From contig NC_080044.1 of the NCBI RefSeq assembly GCF_012489685.1, forward strand, positions 20,254,369 to 20,318,368: a DNA stretch of 64,000 nucleotides. The letters are read 5' to 3'. The translations under genes were made by a program, and so were the position numbers. Below, piece by piece: positions 1 through 64,000 of the stretch. Source of the stretch: Lotus japonicus. Taxonomy: Eukaryota; Streptophyta; Magnoliopsida; Fabales; Fabaceae. The notes below the pieces were generated by a model. The model was not told where the DNA came from. It saw only the letters and a list, made by a program, of their open reading frames with translations, and ran no database searches. How positions within the stretch are numbered: position 1 is the first letter of the stretch; each line of letters starts with the position of its first letter.

Positions 1-21
1 GACGATCATGCTGACACATAG
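1..21 (+). CDS. Last codons of the LTR-resident ORF (partial)
   Basis: The window opens in the final seven codons of the LTR ORF described at 10571-11050. It reads DDDHADT? minus its start, i.e. acidic residues then a TAG stop, matching the ends of the copies at 2370 and 11050. The rest lies outside the window. Confidence 0.6.
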   Translation, partial: DDHADT

Positions 22-513: not shown

Positions 514-969
514 TTGTGGTGAAAAATGTTTTCTGAGGCTTCGGCTGACAATGTAGATGATTCATCTACTGAATGTTTTTGAGAGTTTTGAGAAAGTTTG
601 ATAGGACGAATGAGATTCGGGCCTTGTTATGGTTATAGTGGATCGAGACATTCTCGGGAAGTTATTTGGGATTAGGAGATCCTTAAACTCATAAGTTTTG
701 CGATAAGACTAAAATGATATTATTTTATAAGGAAAATTCATAAGACATTAAACAACCTCTAAATCTTCAAATAATGATATTAAACTCGAAAGGAAGCTTT
801 GGAGGTAAATCTTTGTTTTGGAAAACGAGAAGTGTCGTCGGATCCAAGTGTTGAGGAGTTAAGAAGTATTGAGTATGTTGATGCTCTTGTGCTGTTGGAG
901 CAGCTGTGTTGTTGGGCTATCCTGGGGATAAGTCCGGGAAATTGATAGTTTCCGAGTATGTTGATACTC

Positions 970-1173
970 CACTGAGGCGTGAGACCTTGTGGAAAGCGTG
1001 GATCTTCACTGAGGCGTGAGACCTCGTGAATAGCATGAAACTTCACTGAAGCGTGAGACTTCGTGCAAGTGTGTAAATTCACTGGGGCGTGAGACCCCGT
1101 GAAAGCATAAAACTTCACTGAAGCGTGAGACTTTGTGAATGGGTGAGACTCCACTGAAGCGTGAGACTTCGTG
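970..1173 (+). repeat. Six-unit hairpin array in the Tekay LTR
   Basis: Six 22-nt units begin at 970, 1007, 1044, 1080, 1116 and 1152 (spacing 37, 37, 36, 36, 36). Each has a 7-bp stem with a bulged T and a constant 7-nt loop CGTGAGA. Stem arms vary in step: GAGG/CCTT, GAGG/CCTC, GAAG/CTTC, GGGG/CCCC, GAAG/CTTT and GAAG/CTTC, flanked by CAC...GTG. All pair by Watson-Crick or G-T. On the reverse strand the array reads as a repetitive peptide, but the period is not a multiple of three, so I do not call it coding. Confidence 0.85.
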
Positions 1174-1890
1174 AGAGCATTGATGACTCGAAGAGTTATC
1201 GTGAGTGGTTGCACTCATTTTATGGTTATTGTATTTTGTCGAAGAATCGACTTTACCTTAGGGTAAGCTTTTACGGACTTTAATTTACCTAGAACACGTG
1301 GCGACGTGTCGAGTGAGATTCGGAGACGTTGTTTGACTAATCATTCTACATTCTTGCAACATTAATGAGGTATTAACACAGGACGTACTCTGGACCTCGT
1401 CGGTTTCCAAAATGGTCATAAGACCCGGAATGCCGTGTAAGAGCGTTTGTAGACGTCTCTTGTAGCAGACCGAAATGGCAGACCTACGGGTTTACTGCTG
1501 ATCTGACTACGTGTGGTTGTTGAAGTAAGAGGCACGCGGGCCGAAATGGTCCCACTGTGGCTGGTGTTAGGGCTGATCCGTTTGATGTCCATCCCTTTCC
1601 GGAATGCATGTGGTTAACTGGGTTAACCGTCATTTGCATATCATGCAACATGCATACTAATTTAGTTGTTGAGTGTGATTGGTAATTGTTAATCCTATTT
1701 GGAACATGTTATCTGCTATTATTGCGTTTTATGTTATTGTGGAACATGCAACCCTAGGAATCATATCTCTAGCTATAAGCCTAAGCGGCTATCTATTATT
1801 TGTACCTATTGGGTTTATTATCTACATAGTTCTTTCGAGTTGACCCTCGCGTCTTCTGTGTGTGTTTTGGCGGACAACGCCTTTTGTAAG

Positions 1891-2370
1891 ATGTCCATTG
1901 CGGACTGGTTCACAATGGTCCACCCTTCGGGGGGGATCAGATATGAGATGATTGACCAGGATGACCCCGGTTCGTGGGTGGTAGACCCCGCTAGCCACCG
2001 CGCGACCTATTCCGGGAGGATCATGGAGGATAGGGTAGATAGGGGTGGACTCTTGGTAGAGGGAGTGCTGAGGAGGTGCTTTGTCAGCTTCAACTTGCCA
2101 CCGTGTGTGCATTGCGGACCAGGAGCAGGAGGACCACCACCGCCACCGTCATCTTCAGAGGACGAGGATCCCTCAGAGGAGGAGCCAGTGGGAGTGCCTT
2201 CGGCAGAGTCTAGTGCACCCACCGCTGCTATCAATGATGATCATGGATCGGGCCCAAAGCCCGTTAGTCCAGCACCAGAGTGCATCGCTGTTGCGAGAGG
2301 AGGCGGGGTAGTGTTTGTAGACTTAGTTGTTCTGGATTCTGATTCAGACGACGATCATGCTGACACATAG
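1891..2370 (+). CDS. LTR-resident ORF, 159 aa, copy in the 5' LTR
   Basis: I do not recognise this protein. It has an N-terminal block of about 85 residues (MSIADWFTMVHPSGG..., then DPGSWVVDP, YSGRIMED, SFNLPP), a proline run, an acidic Ser/Glu stretch, a Ser/Pro linker and a C-terminal VVLDSDSDDD. The frame is open further upstream, but the solo-LTR copy has a stop there, so the conserved ATG at 1891 is preferred. Here the base before the upstream AG changed (TAAG rather than TCAG), weakening the predicted splice acceptor. This copy has Cys where the other three copies have Gly in the LPPGVHCGPG motif. Confidence 0.6.
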   Translation: MSIADWFTMVHPSGGIRYEMIDQDDPGSWVVDPASHRATYSGRIMEDRVDRGGLLVEGVLRRCFVSFNLPPCVHCGPGAGGPPPPPSSSEDEDPSEEEPVGVPSAESSAPTAAINDDHGSGPKPVSPAPECIAVARGGGVVFVDLVVLDSDSDDDHADT

Positions 2371-2867
2371 TTTTGAGTGTTAGTGTGAGCTTCTCGAGTT
2401 AGGATTAGTGTAGGAGTAGAGTCTTAGCTCTGACAGTCATTGCTTCATTTGCTTCTTTGGGGGACAGGGTAGTTCCGCCTATAGCTTTTTGTGTGGTTTC
2501 CTTACGGGAATCACAGAGAGTTGGTTGGACTTAAGAGGTCTTATTTTCAGGCCATTGGGTCAGCTTATTCTCAGTTTTGAGGGATAGTGTTGCGGACACT
2601 TACCTTTATATTTGGTTTGTATATATTGCCTACGGGCGCTACTCTTCTATTACCGTCACTGGAGGTTTACTCGTGACGAGGTTGCTACTTACAACGGGGG
2701 CTGTTGTATATATATAGTATATTAGTTCTGTTGATTTCGCATTTGGGTTCTATTTAATTCAGTCTTGTCTTTATTATTATCAAAAAAAAAAAAATATTCA
2801 CGTTTTTCCGCATTAAGTTTATTTTTGGTTACTAAAGTGACGCCACCGAAATCGGGGTGTTACATTG

Positions 2868-2879
2868 TGGTATCAGAGC
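2868..2879 (+). promoter_or_regulatory. Primer binding site, tRNA-iMet type
   Basis: TGGTATCAGAGC begins 3 bases after the LTR end. It complements the 3' end of plant initiator tRNA-Met, the usual primer for chromoviruses and SIRE elements. Confidence 0.9.
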
Positions 2880-3076: not shown

Positions 3077-4300
3077 ATGGTGAATACCAATCAGTTAGCT
3101 GAGATGATGGCCACTATGGCCCAAGCGGTAACAGCGCAGGAAAACGATAATGCCATGAGGCGTGCTGCTGAAGAAGCACGTGAACAACATCAGTGCCAGA
3201 GGGAAGTAACTCTGGACCAGAACAAAGGTCTCAATGATTTCAGGAGGCAAAACCCACCAAAGTTCTCTGGTGGTACTGACCCAGGCGCAGCGGATCTCTA
3301 GATCCAGGAAATCGAGAAGATATTCGGCGTTCTGCAGACTGTTGAGGGTGCCAAGGTGGGCATGGCGACTTATCTTCTGCTAGGAGATGCTGAGTACTGG
3401 TGGAAGGGCACCAGGGGAATCATGGAAGCCAACCATGAAGAGATTAACTGGAACTCGTTCCGAACCGCATTCTTGGAAAAGTATTTTCCAACAAGTGCCC
3501 GGGATGAGAGGGAGGCGCAGTTTCTGACACTCCGTCAGGGAGGTATGTCTGTACCGGAATTCGCTTCGAAGCTGGAGTCTTTAGCGAAGCATTTCCAATT
3601 CTTTAATGATCACGTGGATGAGCGCTACATGTGCAAGCGCTTCGTTAATGGACTGAGGCCGGATATTGAGGACTCAGTGAGGCCACTGGGAATCATGCGA
3701 TTCCAATCGTTGGTGGAGAAAGCCACAGAAGTGGAACTGATGAAGAACCGGAGGCTAAACCGGACTGGAACTGGAGGGCCGATGAGATCGGGCTCTCAGA
3801 ATATTCAGAACAGGGGGAGGTTTCAAAACAGGAGGCCGTATCAGCGTCCTGCTGGTAGAGGGTTTGCGTCAGGATCTTACAGGCCCATGGTGGGTGCTGT
3901 TGGTGGTTCTGGGGGTCAGACTCAGAACAGGGAGCTGACGTGCTTCAAGTGTGGGAAGCCGGGGCACTTTGCTCGTGCTTGTTCCGACACGAGACCTCAA
4001 TGTTTCAACTGTAACAAGTTGGGGCATACTGCTGCTCAGTGCAGGGCACCAAAGACGGAACCAACCGTCAACACTGCTCAAGGAAAGCGTCCTGCTGCAA
4101 AGGCGAGAGTCTACACCATGGATGGCGAAGATGCTGAGGGGGTCGATGGACTGATTAGAGGCGACTGCGAGATTGACGGTAATCTCCTATCCGTACTTTT
4201 CGATTCCGGTGCAACACATTCTTTTATCTCTAGAGAGTGTGCAATCAGATTAAAGCTTCGACCTTATAGTTACTACTCCTGCCAAGACTCTACTTGCTAA
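3077..4300 (+). pseudogene. gag: Tekay gag and start of protease, one stop codon
   Basis: This encodes the retroelement capsid/nucleocapsid protein. From the ATG at 3077 the frame runs to a TAG at 3299-3301, where relatives have Trp, then continues in the same frame from 3302. The capsid core (AEYWWKG, ...FLEKYFP, RQGGMSVPEFASKLESLAKHF) is followed by two CCHC zinc knuckles, CFKCGKPGHFARAC and CFNCNKLGHTAAQC. The protease active site DSGATHSFIS lies near 4203-4232. A one-base shift around 4262-4270 moves the reading into the frame of the following ORF. The stop and the frameshift make this copy probably non-autonomous. Confidence 0.9.
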
Positions 4301-4310
4301 TACTGCATGT

Positions 4311-7300
4311 ATGTACTGTCTGATAACCTATAACAATAGAGTATACCATGCTAACCTAGTATGCCTAGCCCTTAAGAACCTAGATATTATCCTAGGAATG
4401 GATTGGTTGTCCCGCTATCATTGTCTTTTGGACTGCAACCGAAAGAGAGTGGTATTTCCTGATTCGGATCTTTCCAAGTATCTATCTGCTAATCACATTA
4501 GCGTCTCTTTGAACGAGGGATCTCAAGAGTATTCCGTTCTGCTGAGTTTGGAGAGTAAAGGGAATCCGGAAGTTGATAGTATTCCAGTGGTGAAGGAATT
4601 CACGGATGTTTTTCCTGGCGATGTACTTGGACTGCCGCCCGTACGCGACATTGAGTTTGTTATAGACATCGTATCGGGAACAGGGCCGATTTCGATTGCA
4701 CCATATCGTATGGCACCTGCGGAGCTAGTGGAATTGAAGTCCCAACTAGAAGATCTTTTGTCGAAGGGATTTATTCGACCAAGTGTTTCACCTTGGGGAG
4801 CGCCAGTCTTATTGGTGAAGAAGAAGGACGGAAAATCAAGATTATGTGTCGACTACCGACAACTGAACAAAGTAACCGTCAAGAATAGGTATCCGTTACC
4901 TAGAATTGATGATTTGATGGATCAACTGCGAGGAGCTGCAATATTCTCGAAGATCGACCTGAAGTCGGGTTATCATCAAATCAGAGTCAATACCGAGGAT
5001 ATCCAGAAGACGGCATTCAGAACCCGTTATGGACACTACGAGTACTTAGTGATGCCACTTGGGGTGACAAATGCACCGGCAATATTCATGGCTTACATGA
5101 ATATGACCTTCCATACATTCCTGGATCGATTCGTCGTGGTGTTTATCGACGATATTCTGATCTACTCAAAGAATGTTGAGGACCATGAGGAGCACTTGCG
5201 ACAAGTTTTACAAGTGCTGAGGGAGAAGGAGTTGTACGCCAATCCTTCTAAGTGCGAATTTTGGCTCGAAGAGGTAAAATTCTTAGGCCATGTGATCTCT
5301 AAGGAGGGTATAGCTGTGGACCCAGCAAAGGTAGAGACCGTATTGTCATGGGAACGGCCAAAGACAGTGACTGAGATCAGAAGTTTTGTCGGTTTGGCGG
5401 GATACTATCGTCGCTTTATCGAGAATTTCGCGAAGATTGTTGGACCGTTGACTCAACTTACGAGGAAGGACCAGCCTTTTGCATGGACTGAAGCGTGCGA
5501 AACTAGTTTTCAGACGATGAAGGAACGTTTGACGACGTCACCTGTACTCGTCTTACCGCAACCAGAGGAACCTTATGAGGTTTATTGTGATGCTTCGCAT
5601 CAAGGCTTGGGATGTGTGCTGATGCAACATCGGAAGGTGGTTGCTTATGCATCAAGACAACTGAAGGTGCATGAGAAGAATTATCCAACTCATGACTTGG
5701 AACTAGCTGCAATCGTATTTGCACTGAAGATTTTGAGACATCACTTATATGGATGCAATTTCACCATATTCAGTGATCATAAGAGCTTGAAGTATTTATT
5801 TGAGCAGAAGGAGCTGAACATGAGACAGCGTCGGTGGATGGAATTTCTCAAAGATTACGAGTTCACCCTGCAATATCATCCTGGAAAGGCGAACGTTGTT
5901 GCTGATGCCTTGAGCAGGAAGATGCATATCTCGTCGATGATGGTGAAAGAGCTGCAACTGCTGGAACAATTCCGAGACTTAAGCTTAGATGTGAGATTGT
6001 CCGAAGGAGAGCTGAAGTTCGGAATGATCAGGATTGCCAATGGATTGATGGAAGAAATCCGAGACCAACAGTTACAAGATGAGTTTCTGCTCGGGAAAAG
6101 GAATTTGGTAAGTCAAGGTAAAGACCCGGAATTCAAGGTAGGAAGTGACAATACCCTACGGTGTAAGGATAGGGTTTGTGTGCCTAACAACCCTGACTTG
6201 AGAAGATTGATTATGGATGAGGGTCACAAGAGCAAGTTAAGCATTCATCCTGGAATGAAAAAGATGTATCAGGACTTGAAGGTAAATTTCTGGTGGCCAG
6301 GAATGAAAATACAAGTGGCTGAGTATGTAGCTGCATGTCTGACATGTCAGAAGGCAAAGGTGGAACATCAGAAGTCTTCGGGTATGCTACAAAGTTTGGA
6401 TGTACCAGAATGGAAGTGGGATAGCATATCGATGGATTTCGTCGTGGCTTTGCCAAGGACTCAGAAAGGATATGATTCTATTTGGGTAATCGTGGATCGA
6501 TTGACAAAGTCGGCTCATTTCGTACCTGTGAGGACTACGTACAACGTGGAGAAACTATTCGAGATTTATATATCCGAGATTGTACGACTTCATGGAGTAC
6601 CGACAAGTATTGTTTCCGATCGAGACCCGAAGTTTACATCACATTTTTGGGGAGCTCTTCAAGAGGCTTTGGGAACGAGGCTGAGACTAAGTTCTGCTTA
6701 TCATCCGCAGACTGATGGACAGACTGAGAGGACAATCCAGTCATTGGAAGATTTACTACGCGCTTGTGTGTTAGACAACAAGGGCAGTTGGGATGCCTTA
6801 TTGCCATTGATTGAGTTCACATACAACAACAGTTTTTATACGAGCATTGGTATGGCACCGTATGAGGCTTTGTATGGCCGCAAGTGTAGAACACCTCTAT
6901 GCTGGTATCAAAATGGAGAAAATCTGTTAGTAGGACCGGAACTTCTGCAACAGACGACTGAGAAGATCAAGCAGATCAGAGAGAAGATGAAGACTTCTCC
7001 GAGTAGACAGAAGAGTTATGCAGATCAAAGACGTAGATCTCTGGAATTCGAAGAGGGGGATCATGTATTTCTGCGAGTGACTCAGACTACGGGAGTTGGT
7101 CGAGCAATCAAATCAAAGAAGCTTACGCCGAAGTTCATTGGACCTTATCAGATCACTCGTCGAATTGGACCAGTCGCTTACCATATTGCACTACCTCCAT
7201 TTCTATCGAACATTCATGACGTATTCCACGTGTCACAACTGAGGAAGTATATTGCGGATCCGACACATGTTATCGAGCTGGATGACATTGAGTTGAAGGA

Positions 7301-7475
7301 TGATCTGTCTTTCGAGGCACCGCCAATTAGCATTGGTGACACCAGGATAAAACAGTTGAGAGGAAAAGAGATCGAGTTAGTGAAAGTCATTTGGAATAAA
7401 GACACCGGTGATGCGACATGGGAGCTGAAGGAGAAGATTCAAGAACAGTATCCAGAACTTTTTACGAACCCTTAA
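4311..7475 (+). CDS. pol: Tekay pol: RT, RNase H, integrase, chromodomain
   Basis: An open frame of 1,054 codons. Protease tail ([10 protein letters not shown], ~28-37); reverse transcriptase with [11 protein letters not shown] (~178) and catalytic [10 protein letters not shown] (~278); RNase H with [10 protein letters not shown] (~425); integrase with zinc-finger region HPGMKKMY...CLTCQKAK (~650-690) and DDE core ([23 protein letters not shown]); C-terminal chromodomain-like segment ending [17 protein letters not shown]. The RT segment [17 protein letters not shown] departs from the usual APxxFMxxMNRxF pattern, so activity may be impaired despite the open frame. The fusion to gag is broken by the frameshift near 4265, and the true frame opens slightly upstream of the first ATG. 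Confidence 0.93.
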
Positions 7476-8218
7476 GTTTCGAGGTCGAAACTTTCTTTTT
7501 GGAGGGTAGTAATGTAAGGCCCAAGTTTTAAGCTTTTGTCAAGTGAATAAAATTCTTTTTCACGATTAGGGTTGATGTATCGTGAAGGGAAACCTGAACT
7601 AGAGTTTACCAAATGAAATAAATTTATGAAGGAGAAAGTTCAGGAAAAGTCAAAGGATTGTATCGAAGTCGATTTAAGTTATAGCACGATCGTTATACGC
7701 TGAAACTTAGGTCAGAAACCCTAGTATATAGCTAGTTTTCACTTTTAGGCACGATGGAAGTTAATTCCAAAAATCTTCAGAGAAATGTTAGAACTTCTCT
7801 TTTTCCATATATCAAAATCGTTTCGAGGCGAAACTCTAGGATCTACGAACGTCCGATTCCAATCATCGGAAGTTTGCCGAAACCGAATCCCTGGTATTTC
7901 AAAACCCTAGAATCAACCGACAATGAAGAATTTTTCTATTCAGAGCTTCAAATGAAGATTCTACACGCGTACACCCATTTCTCTTGATGATTTCAATCTT
8001 TCTTCAGAAGGAAGTTTTCCATTCCGACATTCGATGCAAAAAGCAACTTATCGGGTAAAATAGTCTTATACCGATTATGCATTAGTCGCTAAAAATACAA
8101 GGAAACCTCATTTTAGTTTTGGAATTCTTTTGCCAAAACATATCTATTAATTCACGGAGAATGAAGCCAGAAAAATCAGATTCGCGAAACTTTCATTTTA
8201 CCGCGTTTTGCCAACCTC

Positions 8219-8227
8219 TATATATAG
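8219..8227 (+). promoter_or_regulatory. LTR TATA box
   Basis: TATATATAG lies in CTCTATATATAGCC. The solo LTR has the equivalent CACTATATATAGG near 57800. Transcription would begin about 30 bases downstream. Confidence 0.7.
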
Positions 8228-8367
8228 CCAAGAAATGAGAAAAAAATCACAAAACTCACCCAAAAACCCATTCAAGGCCGCGAGTTTGCATAGGAGAGGA
8301 GGAGGAGAGATTTTCTTCATTCCTTGCTTGATCGTCGATCAATCAGTTGCTGCTTCAAGGTTTCGAG

Positions 8368-9032
8368 GTATAGTCGCTAATCCTTACCTCTGATCGCTTT
8401 TTCCATAGCTTTTCTGTAGACTTTTATGAGCTGATAGTTTTGAGGTTTTTGCAAAACTATCCTGAATATTTCATTTCTGATTCTAAACCTCTTCCTTATG
8501 TGCCCAAGATCACTTCTGCCTGATTAGATTTTCCGTTATGCCGCCGGATTTCCGCCGGAATCAATTTTAGCCTTAAATACCCATTTTTGGAGTAAAGCTT
8601 CAACCTTTAGGCTGAAAACTATCGCCTTAGCTTAGTGCTAGTAGGATTAGTTGTCATAAACGTCGTTAGTAACGTCCCTGTCAAATTTGCTTTTTGGGAT
8701 TTCAGTTTTGAAATTCTAAGTTAAAAATCATGACCAAAATACCCCTGCGACAGTTTTTGATCCGATAATTTTTCCGAGTTCAGAATACCCTTAGTTACGG
8801 CTAATGATAGCATAGGAACCAAGTTTGATCGAAGAAAAATCGAGTCCTACAATTACCAAAAGTGGCCGAACCTATAGGGGAGGAGGAGGAAAATTTCCTT
8901 TTCCGAAAACTTGTCCTTTCGCGCTAGATTATCGTACCTCGGAGTATGTACTACTTCGTGTAACCTTAGTGATGTATTGATAGCTTAGTTTCCGATAGAT
9001 TCTGATAGTATTTCTGTGGTTTTGCTCTAAAG
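8368..9032 (+). other. Predicted leader intron 1 in the LTR
   Basis: The donor is TTCGAG|GTATAG (8368) and the acceptor is GCTCTAAAG (ending 9032). The solo LTR has counterparts: CTTGAG|GTAGGT (57953) and TTGCTTTAAG (ending 58613). Short exon-like blocks between are recognisable in both LTRs. This is inference from motifs; no transcript evidence is available. Confidence 0.35.
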
Positions 9033-9110
9033 GTGATTTTGAGGAATTTCCAGCGGAGCAAGGCTTTGATTGTGAAGGAGCTTTAGGAGATAACCCTGGA
9101 GAATCTGCAG

Positions 9111-10570
9111 GTGAGGGCTACTCACTGAATCTCTAGTTAATGCTTAGGGTCGATGCTTTCGACATTGTTTACTGTTTATGCACTTGTTTGTGTTTGATTG
9201 GAAAAATGTTTTCTGAGGCTTCGGCTGACAATGTAGATGATTCATCTACTGAATGTTTTTGAGAGTTTTGAGAAAGTTTGATAGGACGAATGAGATTCGG
9301 GCCTTGTTATGGTTATAGTGGATCGAGACATTCTCGGGAAGTTATTTGGGATTAGGAGATCCTTAAACTCATAAGTTTTGCGATAAGACTAAAAGGATAT
9401 TATTTTATAAGGAAAATTCATAAGACATTAAACAACCTCTAAATCTTCAAATAATGATATTAAACTCGAAAGGAAGCTTTGGAGGCAAATCTTAGTTTTG
9501 GAAAACGAGAAGTGTCGTCGGATCCAAGTGTTGAGGAGTTGAGAAGTATTGAGTATGTTGATGCTCTTGTGCTGTTGGAGCAGCTGTGTTGTCGGGCTAT
9601 CCTGGGAATAAGTCCGGGAAATTGATAGTTTCCGAGTATGTTGATACTCCACTGAGGCGTGAGACCTTGTGGAAAGCGTGGATCTTCACTGAGGCGTGAG
9701 ACCTCGTGAATAGCATGAAACTTCACTAAAGCGTGAGACTTCGTGCAAGTGTGTAAATTCACTAGGGCGTGAGACCCCGTGAAAGCATAAAACTTCACTG
9801 AAGCGTGAGACTTTGTGAATGGGTGAGACTCCACTGAAGCGTGAGACTTCGTGAGAGCATTGATGACTCGAAGAGTTATCGTGAGTGGTTGCACACATTT
9901 TATGGTTATTGTATTTTGTCGCAGAATCGACTTTACCTTAGGGTAAGCTTTTAGGGACTTTAATTTACCTAGAACACGTGGCGACGTGTCGAGTGAGATT
10001 CGGAGACGTTGTTTGACTAATCATTCTACATTCTTGCAACATTAATGAGGTATTAACACAGGACGTACTCTGGACCTCGTCGGTTTCCAAAATGGTCATA
10101 AGACCCGGAATGCCGTGTAAGAGCGTTTGTAGACGTCTCTTGTAGCAGACCGAAATGGCAGACCTACTGGTTTAATGCTGATCAGACTACGTGTGATTGT
10201 TGGAGTAAGAGGCACGCGGGCCGAAATGGTCCCACTGTGGCTGGTGTTAGGGCTGATCCGTTTGATGTCCATCCCTTTCCGGAATGCATGTGGTTAACTG
10301 GGTTAACCGTCATTTGCATATCATGCAACATGCATACTAATTTAGTTGTTGAGTGTGATTGGTAATTGTTAATCCTATTTGGAACATGCTATCTGCTATT
10401 ATTGCGTTTTATGTTATTGTGGAACATGCAACCCTAGGAATCATATCTCTAGCTATAAGCCTAAGCGGCTATCTATTATTTGTACCTATTGGGTTTATTA
10501 TCTACATAGTTCTTTAGAGTTGACCCTCGCGTCTTCTGTGTGTGTTTTGGCGGACAACGCCTTTTGTCAG
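9111..10570 (+). other. Predicted leader intron 2, ending at the LTR ORF start codon
   Basis: The donor CTGCAG|GTGAGGGC is near-consensus. The solo LTR has CAACAG|GTGAGGGC at 58692. The acceptor CCTTTTGTCAG ends exactly at the ATG of the LTR ORF (10571). The reverse copy has the same TTTTGTCAG before its ATG, and the solo LTR has TTGTCAG six bases before. The hairpin array lies inside this intron. Confidence 0.4.
9650..9853 (+). repeat. Hairpin array, second copy
   Basis: This is the same six units as at 970-1173, offset by 8,680. Two units have since changed G to A in the 5' arm (CACTAAAG, CACTAGGG), breaking one pair each. The pairing is therefore older than this insertion. Confidence 0.85.
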
Positions 10571-11050
10571 ATGTCCATTGCGGACTGGTTCACAATGGTC
10601 CACCCTTCGGGGGGGATCAGATATGAGATGATTGACCAGGATGACCCCGGTTCGTGGGTGGTAGACCCCGCTAGCCACCGCGCGACCTATTCCGGGAGGA
10701 TCATGGAGGATTGGGTAGATAGGGGAGGACTCTTGGTAGAGGGAGTGCTGAGGAGGTGCTCTGTCAGCTTCAACTTGCCACCGGGTGTGCATTGCGGACC
10801 AGGAGCAGGAGGACCACCACCGCCACCGTCATCTTCAGAGGACGAGGATCCCTCAGAGGAGGAGCCAGTGGGAGTGCCTTCGGCAGAGTCTAGTGCACCC
10901 ACCCCTGCGATCATTGATGATCATGGATCGGGCCCAAAGCCCGTTAGTCCATCACCGGAGTGCATCGCTGTTGCGAGAGGGGGCAGGGTAGTGTTTGTAG
11001 ACTTAGTTGTTTTGGATTCTGATTCAGACGACGATCATGCTGACACATAG
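10571..11050 (+). CDS. LTR-resident ORF, 159 aa, intact copy in the 3' LTR
   Basis: No known family recognised. This is the best-preserved copy: conserved N-terminal block (about residues 1-85) with DPGSWVVDP, YSGRIMED and SFNLPPGVHCGPG; five prolines; acidic SSSEDEDPSEEEP; low-complexity linker; and C-terminal VDLVVLDSDSDDD, which resembles a SUMO-interacting motif (hydrophobic core followed by Ser/Asp). There is no signal peptide or membrane segment. It lies about 2.3 kb after the LTR TATA box and 490 bp before the LTR end, directly after a splice-acceptor-like TTTTGTCAG. It differs from the 5' LTR copy at about eight residues. Function unknown; possibly an accessory or leader protein of the element. 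Confidence 0.65.
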   Translation: MSIADWFTMVHPSGGIRYEMIDQDDPGSWVVDPASHRATYSGRIMEDWVDRGGLLVEGVLRRCSVSFNLPPGVHCGPGAGGPPPPPSSSEDEDPSEEEPVGVPSAESSAPTPAIIDDHGSGPKPVSPSPECIAVARGGRVVFVDLVVLDSDSDDDHADT

Positions 11051-11545
11051 TTTTGAGTGTTAGTGTGAGCTTCTCGAGTTAGGATTAGTGTAGGAGTAGA
11101 GTCTTAGCTCTGACAGTCATTGCTTCATTTGCTTCTTTGGGGGACAGGGTAGTTCCGCCTATAGCTTTTTGTGTGGTTTCCTTATGGGAATCACAGAGAG
11201 TTGGTTGGACTTAGGAGGTCTTATTTTCAGGTCATTGGGTCAGCTTATTCTTAGTTTTGAGGGATAGTGTTGCGGACAGTTACCTTTATATTTGGTTTGT
11301 ATATATTGCCTACGGGCGCTACTCTTCTATTACCGTCACTGGAGGTTTACTCGTGACGAGGTTGCTACTTACAGCGGGGGCTGTTGTATATATATAGTAT
11401 ATTAGTTCTGTTGATTTCGCATTTGGGTTCTTTTTAATTCAGTCTTGTCTTTATTATTATCAAAAAAAAAAATATTCACGTTTTTCCGCATTAAGTTTAT
11501 TTTTGGTTACTAAAGTGACGCCACCGAAATCGGGGTGTTACAGCA

Positions 11546-49812: not shown

Positions 49813-50013
49813 TTTATTAGGCGAAGATTTTGAATGTGCGGAAAAGTTAGACATTTATGTGAAACTTAAGCATTCATGTAGTACTGAAAGAAAATTCATT
49901 GCATAAAAGGAAAAGTTTGTTACATTAAAGCAAGGGAAATAAAGGAACATAAAAGTAAAAGAGATTGGAGTCCTTAACATGATTTGCTAAAAGGAGGAGT
50001 ACATGAATTGGAG
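49813..50013 (+). other. TatB segment between the Athila-like insertion and the antisense gene
   Basis: 200 bp, AT-rich, no gene seen. Confidence 0.5.
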
Positions 50014-50119
50014 CTAATAGTTCTCTCCTTGCCCCTCTTTGTTGGTGACATTTTCTTCTTCATTTCCTTTTTCTTCTTCTTCTTCTTCTTCTTCTTCTTC
50101 TTCTTCTTCTTCTTCTTCT

Positions 50120-50154
<35 letters not shown>

Positions 50155-51101
50155 TTCTGCATTGTCGGGGCTGATCAACTTACCATCCACAATACGGGCG
50201 TAAGGATTGGAGCCTTCAAAGTTGATAGTCAAATTAGGGTTGAGAAAGGTGATATGATTCAGTGCTTTGGCAAAGCCAGCCTCAAATTGGTCCAGGACAG
50301 AGCATTTCAGTTCAGCAACTTCAGATTTAAATTTGGAATTTTCTTCCAAAAGTTGGTTGTGTACAGCAGTCATCTAGACGATATCAGCTTTCACCTTTTC
50401 ATTCTCTTCAGTCAATGCTTGGAAAGAAGTCTTGTTTTCTTCAGCAGTCTTCTTCAAATTGGCAACTTCCAATGCCAAATCAGCAGCTTTTTTCTCATTC
50501 GCCTTGTTGGATTCGTCCAACAACTTCATTGTAGCCTTCATTTTTTCAATTTCCTTCTCCTTTTCTTCAACAAGTTTTGTGTTGGCGAGACCATCAAATC
50601 CAGCAGATTCTAACTCAATCATCTTAGAGATGGCAGCAATCTCTAAGCCTTTAGTCATCATGGCCTGACAAGCTTCCTTCAGGCCAATATTTCTCATCTT
50701 TTCTCGGTCCGCCTCAAAGACGAAATTTGTTTCCACCAAAGAATTGAAGTCAATCTTCGAGTCCCACAGTGAAGTTACTTCATTTGAAGATAACTCTTCA
50801 AATTCCTTCAACAGGTTTTTCCAGCAAGGGGGTGGGCCACTTGATGAACAACCTTTGTTCGTCTCAAAAGCACCGCTTTTGCTCATGAATTGTTCCAGAG
50901 AAGTTTGGTTGGAGGCCTTGCTCTTGGCTGAAGCAAGATCTTCATTTTTCTTCTTCTTCTTAGTAGGACGACCCGTTTCAGTGCCTGAATGGCTAGTGTC
51001 TTGATCAGCAAGCGATTTTGAAGGATTCCTCTTTTCACGAGCGGCTTGTTGTTCGCGGCGGAAACGAAGGATGTTTTCCTCTGATAGGCGAGCCATTTTT
51101 C
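50014..51101 (-). pseudogene. TatB antisense gene, exon 2 (coiled coil), one in-frame stop
   Basis: It begins at the predicted acceptor (51101) a few bases before MARLSEENILRFRREQQ (51096). A basic segment (TETGRPTKKKKKNED) leads into a conserved block (LWDSKIDFNSLVETNFVFE) and a coiled coil (LVEEKEKEIEKMKATMKLL, ...). At 50374-50376 an in-frame TAG is directly followed by ATG, and the frame continues: NPNLTINFEG, ARIVDGKLISPDN and a ~30-residue polyglutamate tail encoded by the (TTC)n tract. Homologous to TatA 14157-15407. Confidence 0.7.
50067..50158. repeat. (TTC)n microsatellite
   Basis: About 30 TTC units, nearly uninterrupted. It encodes polyglutamate in the antisense exon. TatA has only a short acidic tail here, so it expanded in TatB. 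Confidence 0.9.
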
Positions 51102-56699: not shown

Positions 56700-57422
56700 T
56701 GTAAGACCCAAATTTTTAAGTTTTGGATAAGGGAATAAAATACAAGAGTTTATTGGATGAAATAAATTTATGAAGGAAAAGGTTCAGGAAAAGTCCAAGG
56801 ATTGTATCAAAACCGATAAGAGTTATAGCACGACTAACATTCGCCTAATCTTAAGTCGAAGACCCTAGTGAATAGTTAATTTATACTTTAGGACACGATG
56901 GAAACTAATTCCAAAAATCTTCAGAGAAATATTAGAATTTCTCTTATTCGTCTATAAACAAGTATTTCGACGCGAAACCCTGGAACGTACGAACGTCAAA
57001 TTCCAATTCTCGGAAGTTTTCCGAAACGGAATCCCTGATAGTTCGAGAAACCTAAGATCGACGGACGATGAAGACTTTTTCTATTCGGAGCTTCAAATGA
57101 AGATTCCACCCGCGTTCGCCTATTTCTCTCGTTATTTCTAATCTTTCTTCAGAAGGAAGTTTTCTCTTCCGACATCCACTGCAAAAAGTAACTTATCGGG
57201 TAAAATAGTTTTACACCGATTTTGCATTAGTCACCTAAAATACAAGGAAACCTCTGTTGAGTTTTGGAATTCTGTCACCAAAACCTATCTTAGAACTCAC
57301 GGAGAATGAAGCCGGAAAAATAGGAATCACTCTTATATTTTTATTTTAACTCTATGAGTTAAATCCTCCGGTGTCTAAACTAATCTGTACCGGTTTACAA
57401 AATATCTTCTCAAAATATCTCC

Positions 57423-57665
57423 CTAAAATATCTATTCGTTCTTATCCAGTCTTTGATAAATATCTATTCATTCTTATCCAATCTTTGATAAATATCTATT
57501 CATTCTTATCCAATCTTTGATAAATATCTATTCGTTCTTATCCAATCTTTGATTAATATCTATTCGTTCTTATCCAATCTTTGATAAATATCTATTCGTT
57601 CTTATCCAATTTCTGATAAATATCTATTCAACCTTATCCGATCCTTGATAAATATCTACTCATCA
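57423..57665. repeat. 32-bp tandem repeat in the solo LTR U3
   Basis: About seven copies of a 32-bp unit built on ATCTATTCATTCTTATCC and AATCTTTGAT, decaying to the right. Absent from the 3' LTR at 7513. It lies ~150-380 bp before the TATA box. Confidence 0.8.
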
Positions 57666-57796
57666 TTATCTAATCTCTACAAAATATCTTTACAAAATAT
57701 CTTTACCAAAATATCTTCTCAAAAATATCTATCCATCCTTATCCATCCACCAATGCATCCTTATCCAAACTTTGTAAAATATCTCCATTTCCTTCA

Positions 57797-57806
57797 CTAT
57801 ATATAG
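57797..57806 (+). promoter_or_regulatory. TATA box of the solo LTR
   Basis: CTATATATAG within CACTATATATAGG, the counterpart of 8219-8227. Confidence 0.6.
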
Positions 57807-59456
57807 GTTATAAGCTAGAAAATGAAAATTTTGCAAAACTCACCCATTTCTTTCCCCAAAACCGCGGCCAAGAGAGGAGAAGAGGAGGAAGTTGATCTTC
57901 GCGAATTCTTGCCCGTTTGCTTCACCGATCGTTGCTAATCGAAGACCTTGAGGTAGGTAAACTATATCTCTCTTCTGATCGTCGTTTCTGTCGACTTCTC
58001 CTAAGTCTTTATGTGTCCAAAGTTTTGAGGTTTTTGGAAAATTGTCCAAATAGCTTGATTTCTTTGTCTAAACATCTTCCCTACGTGCTCAGGAGCACTT
58101 CTGTCGGATTAGTTTTTTCGTAATGTCGCCGGAATTCCGCCGGAATCAATTCTACCTCAAATACCCATTTTGGGGCAAAGTCTCAATCTTTTAGCTGAAA
58201 TCTATCGACTTGGCTTAGTGCTAGTAGGATTAATCATCATAAACGTCGTTATTGACATCCCCATCCAATTTGTTTTTCAAAAATCCAGTTTTGAAATTCT
58301 GAGTTTAAAATAATGACCAAACTACCCCTATGTCAGTTTTCGATCTGAAAATTTTTCTGAGCTTAGATCCGCCTTAGTTACGACTTATGATAACCTAGGA
58401 ACCAAGTTTGATCGAAGAAAAATCGACCCTCCCAATTAGGAAAAGTGGCCGAGAGCTATACCAAGGGGGGGAGGAAATCCGACTTTTTCAAAAACTTGTC
58501 CTAACGCGTTAGATTGTCGTACCACGGAGTTGTAGTGTTCCGTGTGACCCTAGGACTTATTGTTTGCTGAGTTTCTGACTCATTGTGATTGATTTCTGTG
58601 AAATTGCTTTAAGGTTCGTTTGAGGAATTCGGAGGACTTGAGGAGGAAGATCGTGAAGGAAAGACCAAGGAGCGAGCTGGAAAATCAACAGGTGAGGGCT
58701 ACTCTTTGAATTACTAGATAATGCTTTAGGTGTCGACGAATTCGACTTGATTTATGTGTTATGCACTTAATTGCTAATTGTCTGAAATGATTTCTGAGGC
58801 TTCGGCCGATCTTGTTGAGTACTTGATGTCATGATATTGTGTGCTAAATGATTCACATGTTATGTGCTAAATGGTTAATCTAGGATGTGTTGGAATATGC
58901 TGTTAATGCTTATTGATTGAGCTGATTTATTTATGTTACTCCACTTATATCTGTTATGCTTCAGAGTGAGGATAACGGGCATGTCATGCCGATTTTATTT
59001 TGAGATTTTGGGAAAGTTTGATGGGACGGACCGAGGTTCGTACCCTATTATTGTTTTATGGATCGAGACCTTCTCAAAGGAAAATTGAGTTTGAAAATGT
59101 TATTGGAAAAAACCCCATTTGAATTCACGTAAGAACTTGGGTTGTTCTGTCTAAGGCAAGAAGGGCTTTTAATGAGGCATTGTGCCCGGCCAGCTTACCT
59201 GGGAACTTCTCGAGCCATTACTTGGGTGATGATGGACCTTTTGTTTTGATACCTTCTCCAGGGAATCATTGGAATTATGGGATCTTTGAAACTAATAGGA
59301 TTAGAGACGCAACTTAAACAATTTCATAATGAATCTCCATAATGTATTAAACAACCTCAAAACCCTTAATATAATGATAAAAGACTCAGACAATAGTTTA
59401 GGGCTTGAACATAAGTGTTTTGAAAATGAGAAGTGTCGGCAAATCCAAGATTAGGA

Positions 59457-59630
59457 GAAACTCATAAGTTTCCAAGTACATTCGTACTCTTTCGCTCGAT
59501 GAGCAGTTTATTGTTTGGCTATCTAAAGTTTAGCCGGAGACTATAAGTTTCCAAGTACTTCGGTACCTTTTCGCTCGATGAGCAGTTTATTGATTGGCTA
59601 TCTAAAGTTTAGCCGGGAACCATGAGTTCC
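59457..59630 (+). repeat. Hairpin-rich repeats in the solo LTR
   Basis: At the place where the other subfamily has its six hairpins, this LTR has GAAACT-CATA-AGTTTC (59457-59472), a weaker variant near 59537, and GGAAC-CATGA-GTTCC (59616-59630). The hairpin GGCTA...TAGCC occurs twice between them (59516-59534, 59597-59615). Confidence 0.55.
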
Positions 59631-60313
59631 AAAGTACATTCTTCTTCTTTTTGATTAATTCATTTTGTCGCAGAATCGACATTTGCCTTAGGGTAGGCTT
59701 TTTAGAGACGATAAGTTAGCTAGAACACGTGACGACGTGTCGAGTGAGGTCGGAGACGTTGTTTGGCTAATCACTTGCATTCATGCACTCATTTTGAGGT
59801 TAATACACGGCGTGATACCGGACCTCGGTGGATTCCAAAATGGTCATAAGACCCGGATTTCCATATTTAGGACACTACGGTGGTCCTCAGTAGCAGACGG
59901 AATGGCAGACCTACGGGTTCACTGCTGATCTGACTACTTTTGTGTGGTGTAAGAGGCGCCCGAGCGGAATGGTCCCACTTTGGCCGGTGTTAGGGCTGAC
60001 TCGATGGTGTCCATCCTTCTTCCGGAATGCATTTTGTTACCCAGCATTGCATTTCATGCAACATACATGCTGACTTAGTTGCTGAGTGTGATTGGTACCT
60101 GTTTATCCTATTTGAGGCATGCTAATTGTTATTATGATCTTTATATTCATTGTGATATATGCAACCCTAGGATGTTATCCCTAAACGTATAAGCCTGAGA
60201 GGCTAAATAATTATTACCCTATATATCTGGTTTTATTATTTATATAATTCTTTGGAGTTGACCCTCGCGTCTTCTGTGTGTGTTTGGGCGGACTACGCCA
60301 TTGTCAGTTGAGT

Positions 60314-60760
60314 ATGGCGGACTGGTACGAGACGGTCGTCCCTTCGGGGGGGACCAGGTTTGAGATGTTGGACCAAGACACCCCAAGCTCATGGGTGGTC
60401 GACCCCGCCGGCCACCGAGCTATCTATTCAGGGCGAATAATGGAGGATCGCATTGACCGGATGCCAAGCCTGACGCACGGAGTCTGGAGGCACTACACTA
60501 TCAGCTTCAACTTGCCACCGGGTGTACACTGCGGACCTGGACTGGGAGTGCCACCACCACCGTCGCCTTCGGACGACGAGTACCCCTCGGAGGAGGTGCC
60601 TGTGGGAGGGACTTCTTCAGGCACTAGTTCACCCACTGTCGCGGCTGCTATAGACTTGGGATCGGGTGCAGAACCCGCTCGACCAGCTGTGGAGACCGAT
60701 GCAGTCATCGACATAGTCGTCTTGGATTTTGATTCAGACGACGATCTTGGGGATGCATAG
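60314..60760 (+). CDS. LTR-resident ORF, 148 aa, intact in the diverged solo LTR
   Basis: Starts MADWYETVVPSGG and keeps the motif order: PSSWVVDPAGHRA, IYSGRIMEDRID, SFNLPPGVHCGPG, proline run, acidic DDEYPSEE, variable linker, and C-terminal VIDIVVLDFDSDDD. It is shorter by indels that preserve frame. By eye, in the first ~45 codons about 15 differ silently and about 12 change the residue from the 11 kb copy; in SFNLPPGVHCGPG all three changes are silent. A stop upstream shows that translation must start near this ATG. Function unknown. Confidence 0.65.
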   Translation: MADWYETVVPSGGTRFEMLDQDTPSSWVVDPAGHRAIYSGRIMEDRIDRMPSLTHGVWRHYTISFNLPPGVHCGPGLGVPPPPSPSDDEYPSEEVPVGGTSSGTSSPTVAAAIDLGSGAEPARPAVETDAVIDIVVLDFDSDDDLGDA

Positions 60761-61393
60761 TTGGGATTAGTGTAGGAGTAGCGTCTTGGCTCTGATGTTC
60801 AGTCTTTCGTTTTGGGCAGGGTAGGTCCCCGACCTTTAGCTTTTCTTGTGGTTCTCTTTACGAAAATCACAGAGAGTTGGTTGGACTAGGGGGTCTTGTT
60901 TTAGGCCATCTGGGCTGACTTATTCTCATTTTGAGGGTTTGTGTTGCAGACACTTAACCTTTTCTTTTGAAATGTACCTTTTGCCTTCGGGCGTTGCTCT
61001 CTTTTGCTGTCCGTCACTAGAGGTTTACTCGTGACGTGGTTTACTACTTACAGCGGGGGCTGTAATTATTATTGTATATTAGTTCTGTTATCTTCTGTTG
61101 TCAGGTTCTATTTCTTTCAGATTTAATTTTGTATTATCGAAAAAAAAAAATATTCACGTTTTTCCGCTTAAACTTTCTTTTCGGTTACTAAAGTGACGCC
61201 ACCGAATTCGGGGTGTTACAGAAAGTAGTAATTATTTTGGTTTACATAATAAGATATTTCATAGTCAGTCACAAGTTTGATTTTGTACAAGAAGTTCTAG
61301 TTTTATTATTTGTTTTTTAGGCAAAACCAAAAGGTATGAATTAATTGGTGAAATCACTTAATTATGAATCAATTATATTAATGTTTTGAGCAG

Positions 61394-62588: not shown

Positions 62589-64000
62589 TGTAACACCCCG
62601 ATTTCGGTGGCGTCACTTTAGTAACCAAAATAAACTTAATGCGGAAAAACGTGAATATTTTTTTTTATAATAATAACTAAGACAAGACGGAATTAAATAA
62701 AACCCAACAATAACAAAAATCAGAACTAATATACAATATATAAACAGCCCCCGCTGTAGTAGCAACCTCGTCACGAGTAACCTCCAGTGACGGAAAGAAA
62801 AGGGCAACGCCCGTAGGCGATATATACAAACCAAATGAAAAGGTGAAGTGCCCGCAACACTATCCCTCAAAACTGAGAATCAGCTGACCCAATGGCCTGA
62901 AAATAAGACTTCCTAAGTCCAACCAACTCTCTGTGATTCCCGTAAGGAAACCACACAAAAAGCTATAGGCGGATCTACCCTGTCCCCTAAGTAACAAGTG
63001 AAGCAAGACTGTCAGAGCTAAAACTCTACTCCTACACTAATCCTAACTCGAGGAGCTCATACCAACACTCAAAACTATGTGCTAGCATGATCGTCGTCTG
63101 AATCAGAATCCAGAACGACCAAGTCTACTAACCCTATCCGTCCTCCCCTCGCAACCGCAGTGCGCTCCGATGCTGGACTCACAGGCTTAGGGCCCGAACC
63201 CTGATCATCGATGATCGCAACGGTGGGTGCACTAGACCCTGCCGAAGGCACTCCCACTGGAATCTCCTCTGAGGGATCCTCCTCGTCTGAAGACAATGGT
63301 GGTGGTGGTGGTCCTCCAAGTCCTGGTCCACAGTGAACGCCCGGTGGCAAGTTGAAGTTGATAGAGCATCGCCTCAACACTCCTGACCTCAGAAGTCCTC
63401 CGCTATCCACGTGATCCTCCATGATGCACCCCGAATACGTCGCTCGATGGCTCGCGGGGTCAACCACCCACGACCCGGGGTCGTCCTGATCGATCATCTC
63501 ATACCTAATCCCCCCCGAAGGGTGGACCATGGTGAACCAATCCGCAATATTCATCTGACAAAAGGCGTTGTCCGCCAAAACACACACAGAAGACGCGAGG
63601 GTCAACTCTAAAGAACTATGTAGATAATAAACCCAATAGGTACAAATAATAAATAGCCACTTAGGCTTATAACTAGAGATGTCATTCCTAGGGTTGCATG
63701 TTCCATATCGAACGTAAATGACAACAATAACAAATAGCATGTTCCAAATAGGATTGACAAATAACAATCACACTCGACAACTAAATTAGTATGTATGTTG
63801 CATGATATGCAATGCAGGTTAACCCAGTCAACCAATATGCATTCCGGAACGGATGGACATCATCGGATCAGCCCTAACACCAGCCACGGTGGGACCATTT
63901 CGGCCCGTGATGCCTCTTACTCCAACATCATCATGTAGTCAGATCAGCATAAAACCCGAAGGCCTGCCATTTCGGTCTGCTACTAAGAGTCACCTAGCAG
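62589..64000 (-). mobile_element. Reverse-strand Tekay LTR, runs off the window
   Basis: Begins TGTAACACCCCGATTTCGG, the reverse complement of the family's LTR end. It holds an LTR ORF (63075-63554). The rest of the element, if any, lies beyond 64000. Confidence 0.9.
63075..63554 (-). CDS. LTR-resident ORF, 159 aa, reverse-strand copy
   Basis: Starts MNIADWFTMVHPSGG directly after TTTTGTCAG and ends VVLDSDSDDDHAST. Intact. The N-terminal block, SFNLPP-equivalent NFNLPPGVHCGPG, proline run, acidic stretch and C-terminal motif are all retained. It differs from the 10571 copy at more positions than the 1891 copy does (for example CIMEDHVDSGG, LRSGVLRRC). Function unknown. Confidence 0.62.
   Translation of the reverse strand: MNIADWFTMVHPSGGIRYEMIDQDDPGSWVVDPASHRATYSGCIMEDHVDSGGLLRSGVLRRCSINFNLPPGVHCGPGLGGPPPPPLSSDEEDPSEEIPVGVPSAGSSAPTVAIIDDQGSGPKPVSPASERTAVARGGRIGLVDLVVLDSDSDDDHAST

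Follow-up and report, generated by a model that had tools for sequence, protein, structure and literature searches.

An open reading frame under purifying selection within the long terminal repeats of Lotus japonicus retrotransposons

RESULTS

The LTRs of the window and their open reading frames

The stretch of DNA analyzed here (the window; 64,000 nucleotides, C4:20254369-20318368 of Lotus japonicus) carries a retrotransposon with parts or all of both long terminal repeats (LTRs), a solo-like LTR and further LTR sequence at its two ends (Table 1). Each of these LTRs contains an ORF or part of one. The earlier note had reported four intact frames, and all four were open when they were read again; the ORF tail that opens the window comes from a copy (L002) whose 159 codons are likewise intact.

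Table 1. Features of the window and of the LTR ORF
Feature	Position	Strand	Remarks
ORF tail of the LTR copy upstream of the window	1..21	+	Whole copy is L002, 159 aa
5' LTR	521..2864	+	First ~1.7 kb missing
LTR ORF copy A, 159 aa + stop	1891..2370	+	In the truncated 5' LTR; same element as B
Primer binding site (PBS) TGGTATCAGAGC	2868..2879	+	
gag and pol frames	3356..7475	+	Same element; two open frames, 3356-4300 and 4311-7475
Polypurine tract GGAGGGTAGTAA	7501..7512	+	Immediately 5' of the 3' LTR
3' LTR, complete, 4,030 bp	7513..11542	+	Start TGTAAGGCCC, end GGGGTGTTACA
Block GAGTTGACCCTCGCG	10517..10531	+	Conserved in both LTR families; ends 40 nt before the ATG
LTR ORF copy B, 159 aa + stop	10571..11050	+	In the 3' LTR
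N-terminal beta-rich domain, residues 1-75	10571..10795	+	Conserved
SIM-like acidic motif DLVVLDSDSDDD, residues 144-155	11000..11035	+	
Solo-like LTR, subfamily C	56700..61220	+	Flanks GAAGG / GAAAG
LTR ORF copy C, 148 aa + stop	60314..60760	+	Subfamily C, solo-like LTR
LTR ORF copy D, 159 aa + stop	63075..63554	-	LTR cut by the window end

In the complete 3' LTR, the ORF lies wholly between the LTR start TGTAAGGCCC and the LTR end GGTGTTACA, and upstream of the PBS, so that a complete element has two copies of it and a solo LTR keeps one. In the window element it is separate from gag-pol and outside the internal region. The PBS of this element (TGGTATCAGAGC) is presumably of the initiator-Met tRNA type. 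Although gag-pol is interrupted in this copy, Pfam matches were obtained for gag, protease, RT, RNase H and integrase, in the Ty3/gypsy order gag-PR-RT-RH-INT. The last 124 residues (the integrase C terminus) gave no Pfam match to a chromodomain, and a CHD-II-like tail was seen there by eye only. The domain order agrees with the label proposed earlier, a Tekay chromovirus, which is plausible.

Between positions 505 and 530, the end of another LTR (513) is followed by a few bases and then by mid-LTR sequence of the 5' LTR (521); this is a deletion junction between two related elements. The flanking repeat around the solo-like LTR matches at 4 of 5 positions. Elsewhere in the window, a long T tract (49984-50613) produces a poly-Phe frame of 209 aa, which is mechanical and bears no sign of a gene.

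The 63 nt 5' of the ATG are highly conserved. Among 59 intact copies of the ORF (described below), 58 are open for 20 codons 5' of the ATG, with a pN/pS of 0.24 and very low variability over these codons, and a pN/pS of 0.72 in the nearest 30 nt. Coding in this stretch was not established, as 13 of the 59 copies have a non-triplet indel in it and none has an in-frame ATG. The protein may have a short in-frame N-terminal extension.

The frame is kept intact in most copies of the family

From the 553.7-Mb genome, 75 LTR copies of this family (family 1), including copies A and B of the window, were fetched around the ORF: 40 through the ORF DNA, and 35 added through the LTR DNA downstream of the ORF. 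The flank-based search returned 40 full matches, including the query copy and its partner, 5 of which were already in the sample; a 41st match, a 57-base piece, was dropped. The frame is intact, with 155-162 codons, in 59 of the 75 copies and incomplete in the other 16, and in a protein search 139 of the best 150 scored matches are stop-free, both being fractions that selection of samples by ORF DNA or by protein biases upward. In the flank-selected LTRs, which were chosen without regard to the ORF, it is intact in 32 of 40 copies (30 of 38 when copies A and B are set aside). As for the others, L046 and L067 are cut off before the start, L073 has lost the start region, L014, L051 and L057 have a frameshift or stop, and L043 and L075 share a large deletion.

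The earlier note had held that frequent frameshifts would speak against a protein, and these were not seen. Frame-shifting indels start inside the ORF in 4 of the 38 copies that span it, a count that omits two gaps (-4 and +4) which lie 7 nt from each other and together restore the frame (34 of 38 with them included), against 36/38, 36/38 and 39/40 copies in three flanking windows of 480 nt. Counted as distinct events over all 75 copies, there are 15 indels in the ORF and 418 in the flanks (31 versus 224 per kb).

A run of seven G residues (window 10609-10615, codons 13-15) is a recurrent place of +1/-1 frameshifts in this family and in the second family described below (L009, L013, L014, L087, L088, L093 and L094). 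In 16 of the best 150 family 2 matches, the match begins only at residue 10-13, and the downstream frame is open in most of them. The run may be a hotspot of decay, an assembly error or a site of slippage.

Selection on the protein between elements

The dN/dS values (NG86) between subfamilies of family 1 range from 0.12 to 0.35, the lowest being that of L098-L097; those of the other pairs are 0.19 (B-D), 0.35 (B-C), 0.18 (B-L096), 0.20 (B-L097) and 0.17 (C-L097). Values near 1, also named beforehand as contrary evidence, were therefore not found. The silent excess that had been counted by hand between copies B and C has the right direction, with an NG86 estimate of 0.35 for the frames at 10571 and 60314. 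With counts rounded, the excess is significant in five between-subfamily pairs (p = 3e-5 to 2e-11) and in a sixth, closer pair (p = 9e-4). Between family 1 and the second family, dN/dS is 0.16-0.42 where computable, with dS near-saturated and three pairs not computable.

As would be expected of a coding sequence, third codon positions are 3-4 times more variable than first and second ones: heterozygosity in the 59 intact copies is 0.051, 0.038 and 0.157 by codon position. The flanks have no codon pattern (0.064/0.091/0.077 upstream and 0.044/0.040/0.062 downstream). In 600 random pairs of intact copies, which are not independent of one another, pN/pS is 0.23 in the sense frame and 0.30-1.83 in the five other frames, all of which contain stops. 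The two shifted sense frames have values of 1.2-1.7, and pseudo-frames in the flanks 0.50-1.26. Antisense coding was rejected: the best antisense frame has a pN/pS of 0.30 but 3 stops, and its low value is expected because wobble positions coincide. The most constrained stretch tested is the first 20 codons (pN/pS 0.03). Codon periodicity, the scarcity of indels, dN/dS and the existence of a second, diverged family thus all bear out purifying selection on a protein, as the earlier note had proposed, and on these sequence data the LTR ORF is almost certainly a functional protein-coding gene.

Relaxed change after insertion

A different picture emerged within single elements. Eleven 5'/3' LTR pairs were taken from 18 same-strand neighboring pairs, the rest being tandem, redundant combinations or further apart. 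Together they differ by 40 replacement and 16 silent changes (pN/pS 0.80), with no significant silent excess (p = 0.27), whereas pN/pS is 0.22-0.24 between copies whose flanks differ by at least 4%. The within-element pairs differ significantly from pair B-D (Fisher p = 0.0016) and from pair B-L096 (p = 0.006). LTR identity within these elements is 0.981-0.993, and the ORF is intact in both LTRs in 10 of the 11 pairs, the exception being L013/L016. Near-neutral change within elements and constraint between them mean that selection acts while elements multiply, and not on each resident copy. In a separate region (C4:15304907-15339500), three LTR copies (L035, L036 and L037) lie 14-20 kb apart with an ORF that ends at codon 97 in each; L035 and L036 are 99.95% identical, and the group is probably a local duplication of an element.

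A second LTR family and conserved noncoding blocks

A second LTR family, with ORFs of 218-223 codons, was reached through three database proteins (P0009-P0011) that share 50-53% identity with copy B. Of 20 copies fetched, 12 have a full-length frame, 6 a shortened one, and 2 lack the start pattern used. In 17 of the 20, the LTR end GGGTGTTACA follows the ORF start at a distance of ~1.1 kb, and in 2 a PBS comes behind it. In the copies compared, both noncoding flanks of the ORF can be aligned between the two families; the common ancestor of these families thus most likely already had the ORF in its LTR, and a passenger transposable element inserted into the LTR is not favored.

The conserved block that ends 40 nt 5' of the ATG in copy B takes the form GAGTTGACCCT(C/A)GCG across the families and is a candidate core promoter or 5' UTR of the ORF. 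A hairpin of 17 predicted pairs occurs 3' of the ORF in both families (window 11159-11226; L077:1840-1909). Two of its pairs are kept by changes on both sides, and these changes largely track the family split, so that they represent few independent events.

The gene is very abundant in the genome. Scored matches are the best 150 of 6,403-9,080 loose candidates for each of four window/Lotus queries, and the candidate totals of a first look (up to 9,645) are equally loose and not copy counts.

The predicted protein

The conserved residues 1-75 are predicted to fold into a sheet of four strands accompanied by one short helix (pLDDT 77), and no significant structural match to this model was found in the PDB. 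A variable linker rich in Pro, Ser and acidic residues follows (residues 76-140), and the protein ends in a conserved acidic tail (VDLVVLDSDSDDD in family 1, VVDLDTEMITVDSDSDSD in family 2) with a hydrophobic core and then DSDSDDD. The pN/pS values are 0.24 for the N-terminal domain, 0.48 for the linker and 0.26 for the tail. We take the tail to fit a SUMO-interacting motif (SIM), that is, a hydrophobic core flanked by acidic residues. A SIM-like pattern occurs in 75 of the 78 proteins scanned, over the final 25 residues in family 1 and the final 70 in family 2, with copies A and B of the window being counted twice; short acidic tails meet this pattern fairly easily, and 20% of shuffled family 1 tails match it. 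The net charge, computed for three of the proteins, is -18 to -21. No known domain, fold or homologue was detected in sequence, profile and structure searches.

Among 5.8 billion proteins (partly through the best ~7,990 candidates), the matches named by genus are from Lotus japonicus only, and the rest are lgn or ena entries. On this distribution, capture of a host gene is not favored. The entries named Lotus include UniProt I3SYR4 (P0016) and an 'isoform X1' model (P0014); such entries generally derive from cDNA or RNA-seq, and the two are not counted here as evidence of expression. Over their full length, the database entries P0013, P0001 and P0005 are at most 75%, 91% and 95% identical, respectively, to scored copies in the genome (92% for P0001 and 96% for P0005 over part of the length), which suggests that they come from relatives or other Lotus japonicus accessions, and hence that the ORF is probably present in relatives too. 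Homologue searches are limited by the fact that LTR ORFs are rarely annotated.

A lineage that has lost the ORF

The deletion in L043 and L075 removes ~318 of the 480 nt of the ORF (about two thirds) and leaves a stop at codon 6 in both. This ORF-deleted lineage has at least 40 copies, and 6 of 40 matches, query included, are identical over the 166-base junction. Some of these LTRs are in tandem, spaced 6.05 and 6.49 kb apart. With the deleted LTR estimated at ~3.7 kb (4.03 kb less the deletion) and the gag-pol interior at 4.6 kb, this spacing is too close for an LTR plus a full interior, so that the lineage was probably mobilized in trans. It is probably a recently active nonautonomous family. 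Its recent multiplication means that the ORF is not required in cis and may be dispensable; the lineage fits a trans-acting protein and equally a dispensable one.

DISCUSSION

LTRs are usually taken as noncoding. Among animal retroviruses, MMTV Sag, lentiviral Nef and foamy virus Bel are accessory proteins encoded in, or into, the LTR and duplicated by reverse transcription, and they are expressed from spliced or internal-promoter RNA. By intra-LTR location, these are the closest kind to the Lotus ORF known to us. In plants, we found no LTR-encoded protein in the open-access literature searched, in agreement with the initial impression that none had been described for Tekay elements, and the available text of PMC3778962 and PMC12371157 describes no LTR ORF. 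Judged from sequence, the gene inside these plant LTRs is real and selected and, as far as the searches reach, new in place and in sequence.

The nearest plant counterparts lie elsewhere in the element. The ORF0 or 5' additional ORF of Tekay elements (Retrosat2, RIRE3, RIRE8, FRetro3 and sunflower Tekay group 2) is likewise an extra sense ORF 5' of gag-pol, in long-LTR elements, kept in many copies, divergent and with no assigned domain (PMC3485330 and PMC11728184, in the parts available). However, ORF0 occurs once per element, in the stretch from the 5' LTR to gag-pol (PMC3485330 and PMC4093653, from partial texts), while the Lotus ORF is intra-LTR and present twice; the comparison here is one of position. 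According to the accessible portion of PMC3485330, dicot relatives, soybean included, have ORF1 only, and in sunflower the Tekay 5' ORFs, of unknown function, are conserved in 500 of 523 elements (PMC11728184, in part). The aORF-3R of Grande (gene23), RIRE2, Retand and PvRetro13 also encodes an accessory protein of unknown function that is conserved in plant LTR-retrotransposon families, and a nuclear location has been reported for the Grande product (PMC7264820). It is antisense and between pol and the 3' LTR, unlike the Lotus ORF, which is sense and intra-LTR. With the plant aORF/eORF class the Lotus ORF thus has in common that it is kept in most copies (32 of 40, with dN/dS well below 1), but it lies outside the internal region where that class is located.

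We tentatively prefer to see in the ORF a gene of the LTR, 148-222 codons long, on which purifying selection acts; its acidic product is likely a nuclear accessory factor that works in trans and helps the element's LTRs to escape host silencing. Its separate parts differ in strength: action in trans is probable, and an anti-silencing or transcription-factor role is conceivable from the sequence but doubtful. Under this reading, the ORF would be translated from within the LTR, the conserved block just 5' of the ATG would serve as its promoter or 5' UTR, the acidic tail would bind SUMO or silencing proteins that depend on it, and the N-terminal domain would target LTR chromatin or a partner. The ORF-deleted lineage, by the spacing of its LTRs, likely borrows proteins. 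A nuclear anti-silencing or transcription role is tentatively chosen because PIAL2, a SUMO ligase-like protein, acts with MOM1 in plant silencing (PMC6084981, in the part available). The anti-silencing VANC proteins of VANDAL DNA transposons (PMC5735166 and PMC10398659, partial texts) are a proposed likeness only, in that each would be a transposon-encoded trans factor undoing the silencing of its own family: VANC is a DNA transposon gene, the Lotus protein comes from an LTR ORF, and anti-silencing is here a guess. In its unlikely, strongest form, every LTR, solo LTRs included, would be a self-contained gene (promoter, ORF and terminator) for a SUMO-binding anti-silencing protein, with the dispersed LTRs as a trans pool.

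Other roles for the protein have to be weighed against this. Most proposals for the extra ORFs of plant retrotransposons concern particle assembly, nuclear import or integration-site choice (PMC7264820; PMC11728184, in part). The Lotus protein could be an accessory factor of this type, with a tail and an N-terminal domain that would bind Gag, integrase or a partner in host chromatin, and ORF loss in a lineage probably mobilized in trans fits this as it fits any trans factor. We regard this role as somewhat unlikely, since the ORF of the window element stands apart from gag-pol and the internal region and its sequence holds no hint of a link to Gag or integrase. The protein is also small, encoded by a transposable element and without known relatives, and a DRBM-like fold has been suggested for grass Tekay 5' ORFs (PMC11728184, available sections), as might suit a cytoplasmic suppressor of RNA silencing that binds small RNA or an Argonaute/DRB partner in the way of plant-virus suppressors. 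A net charge as negative as the one computed speaks against RNA binding, and the N-terminal model matches nothing significant in the PDB, which makes such a suppressor improbable.

The frame might also be of little use to the element, or used only as nucleic acid. The size of the ORF-deleted lineage, the many damaged copies and the lack of a homologue named other than Lotus would suit a selfish module that is present only in the master lineages of this host group and now decaying. Against this, recent elements nearly all keep the ORF intact in both LTRs, pN/pS between copies is still low, and the identities of P0013, P0001 and P0005 suggest that the ORF is probably in relatives too; we hold this explanation to be quite unlikely. 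Regulatory sites are expected in LTRs, and a conserved hairpin 3' of the ORF and the highly conserved 63 nt 5' of it could be cited for a frame kept by RNA structure or overlapping regulatory sites with no protein used. The excess of third-position change, the avoidance of non-triplet indels, the specificity for the sense frame and conservation across ~50% protein divergence leave this with very little credibility.

A selected gene in the LTR would be duplicated at every insertion and persist in solo LTRs. Plant LTRs are annotated as noncoding and masked, and such a gene would be missed by surveys that begin at 250 codons, as did an 80-species survey of extra ORFs (PMC6317226, in the text available). 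If the protein is an anti-silencing or accessory factor, it would offer a direct handle on why a few retrotransposon families flood plant genomes, and solo LTRs need not be inert. Should the self-contained form of the anti-silencing reading be true, thousands of dispersed LTRs would keep the whole family, and with it nonautonomous parasites that lack the ORF, expressible, and this would be the first LTR-encoded protein of a plant retroelement.
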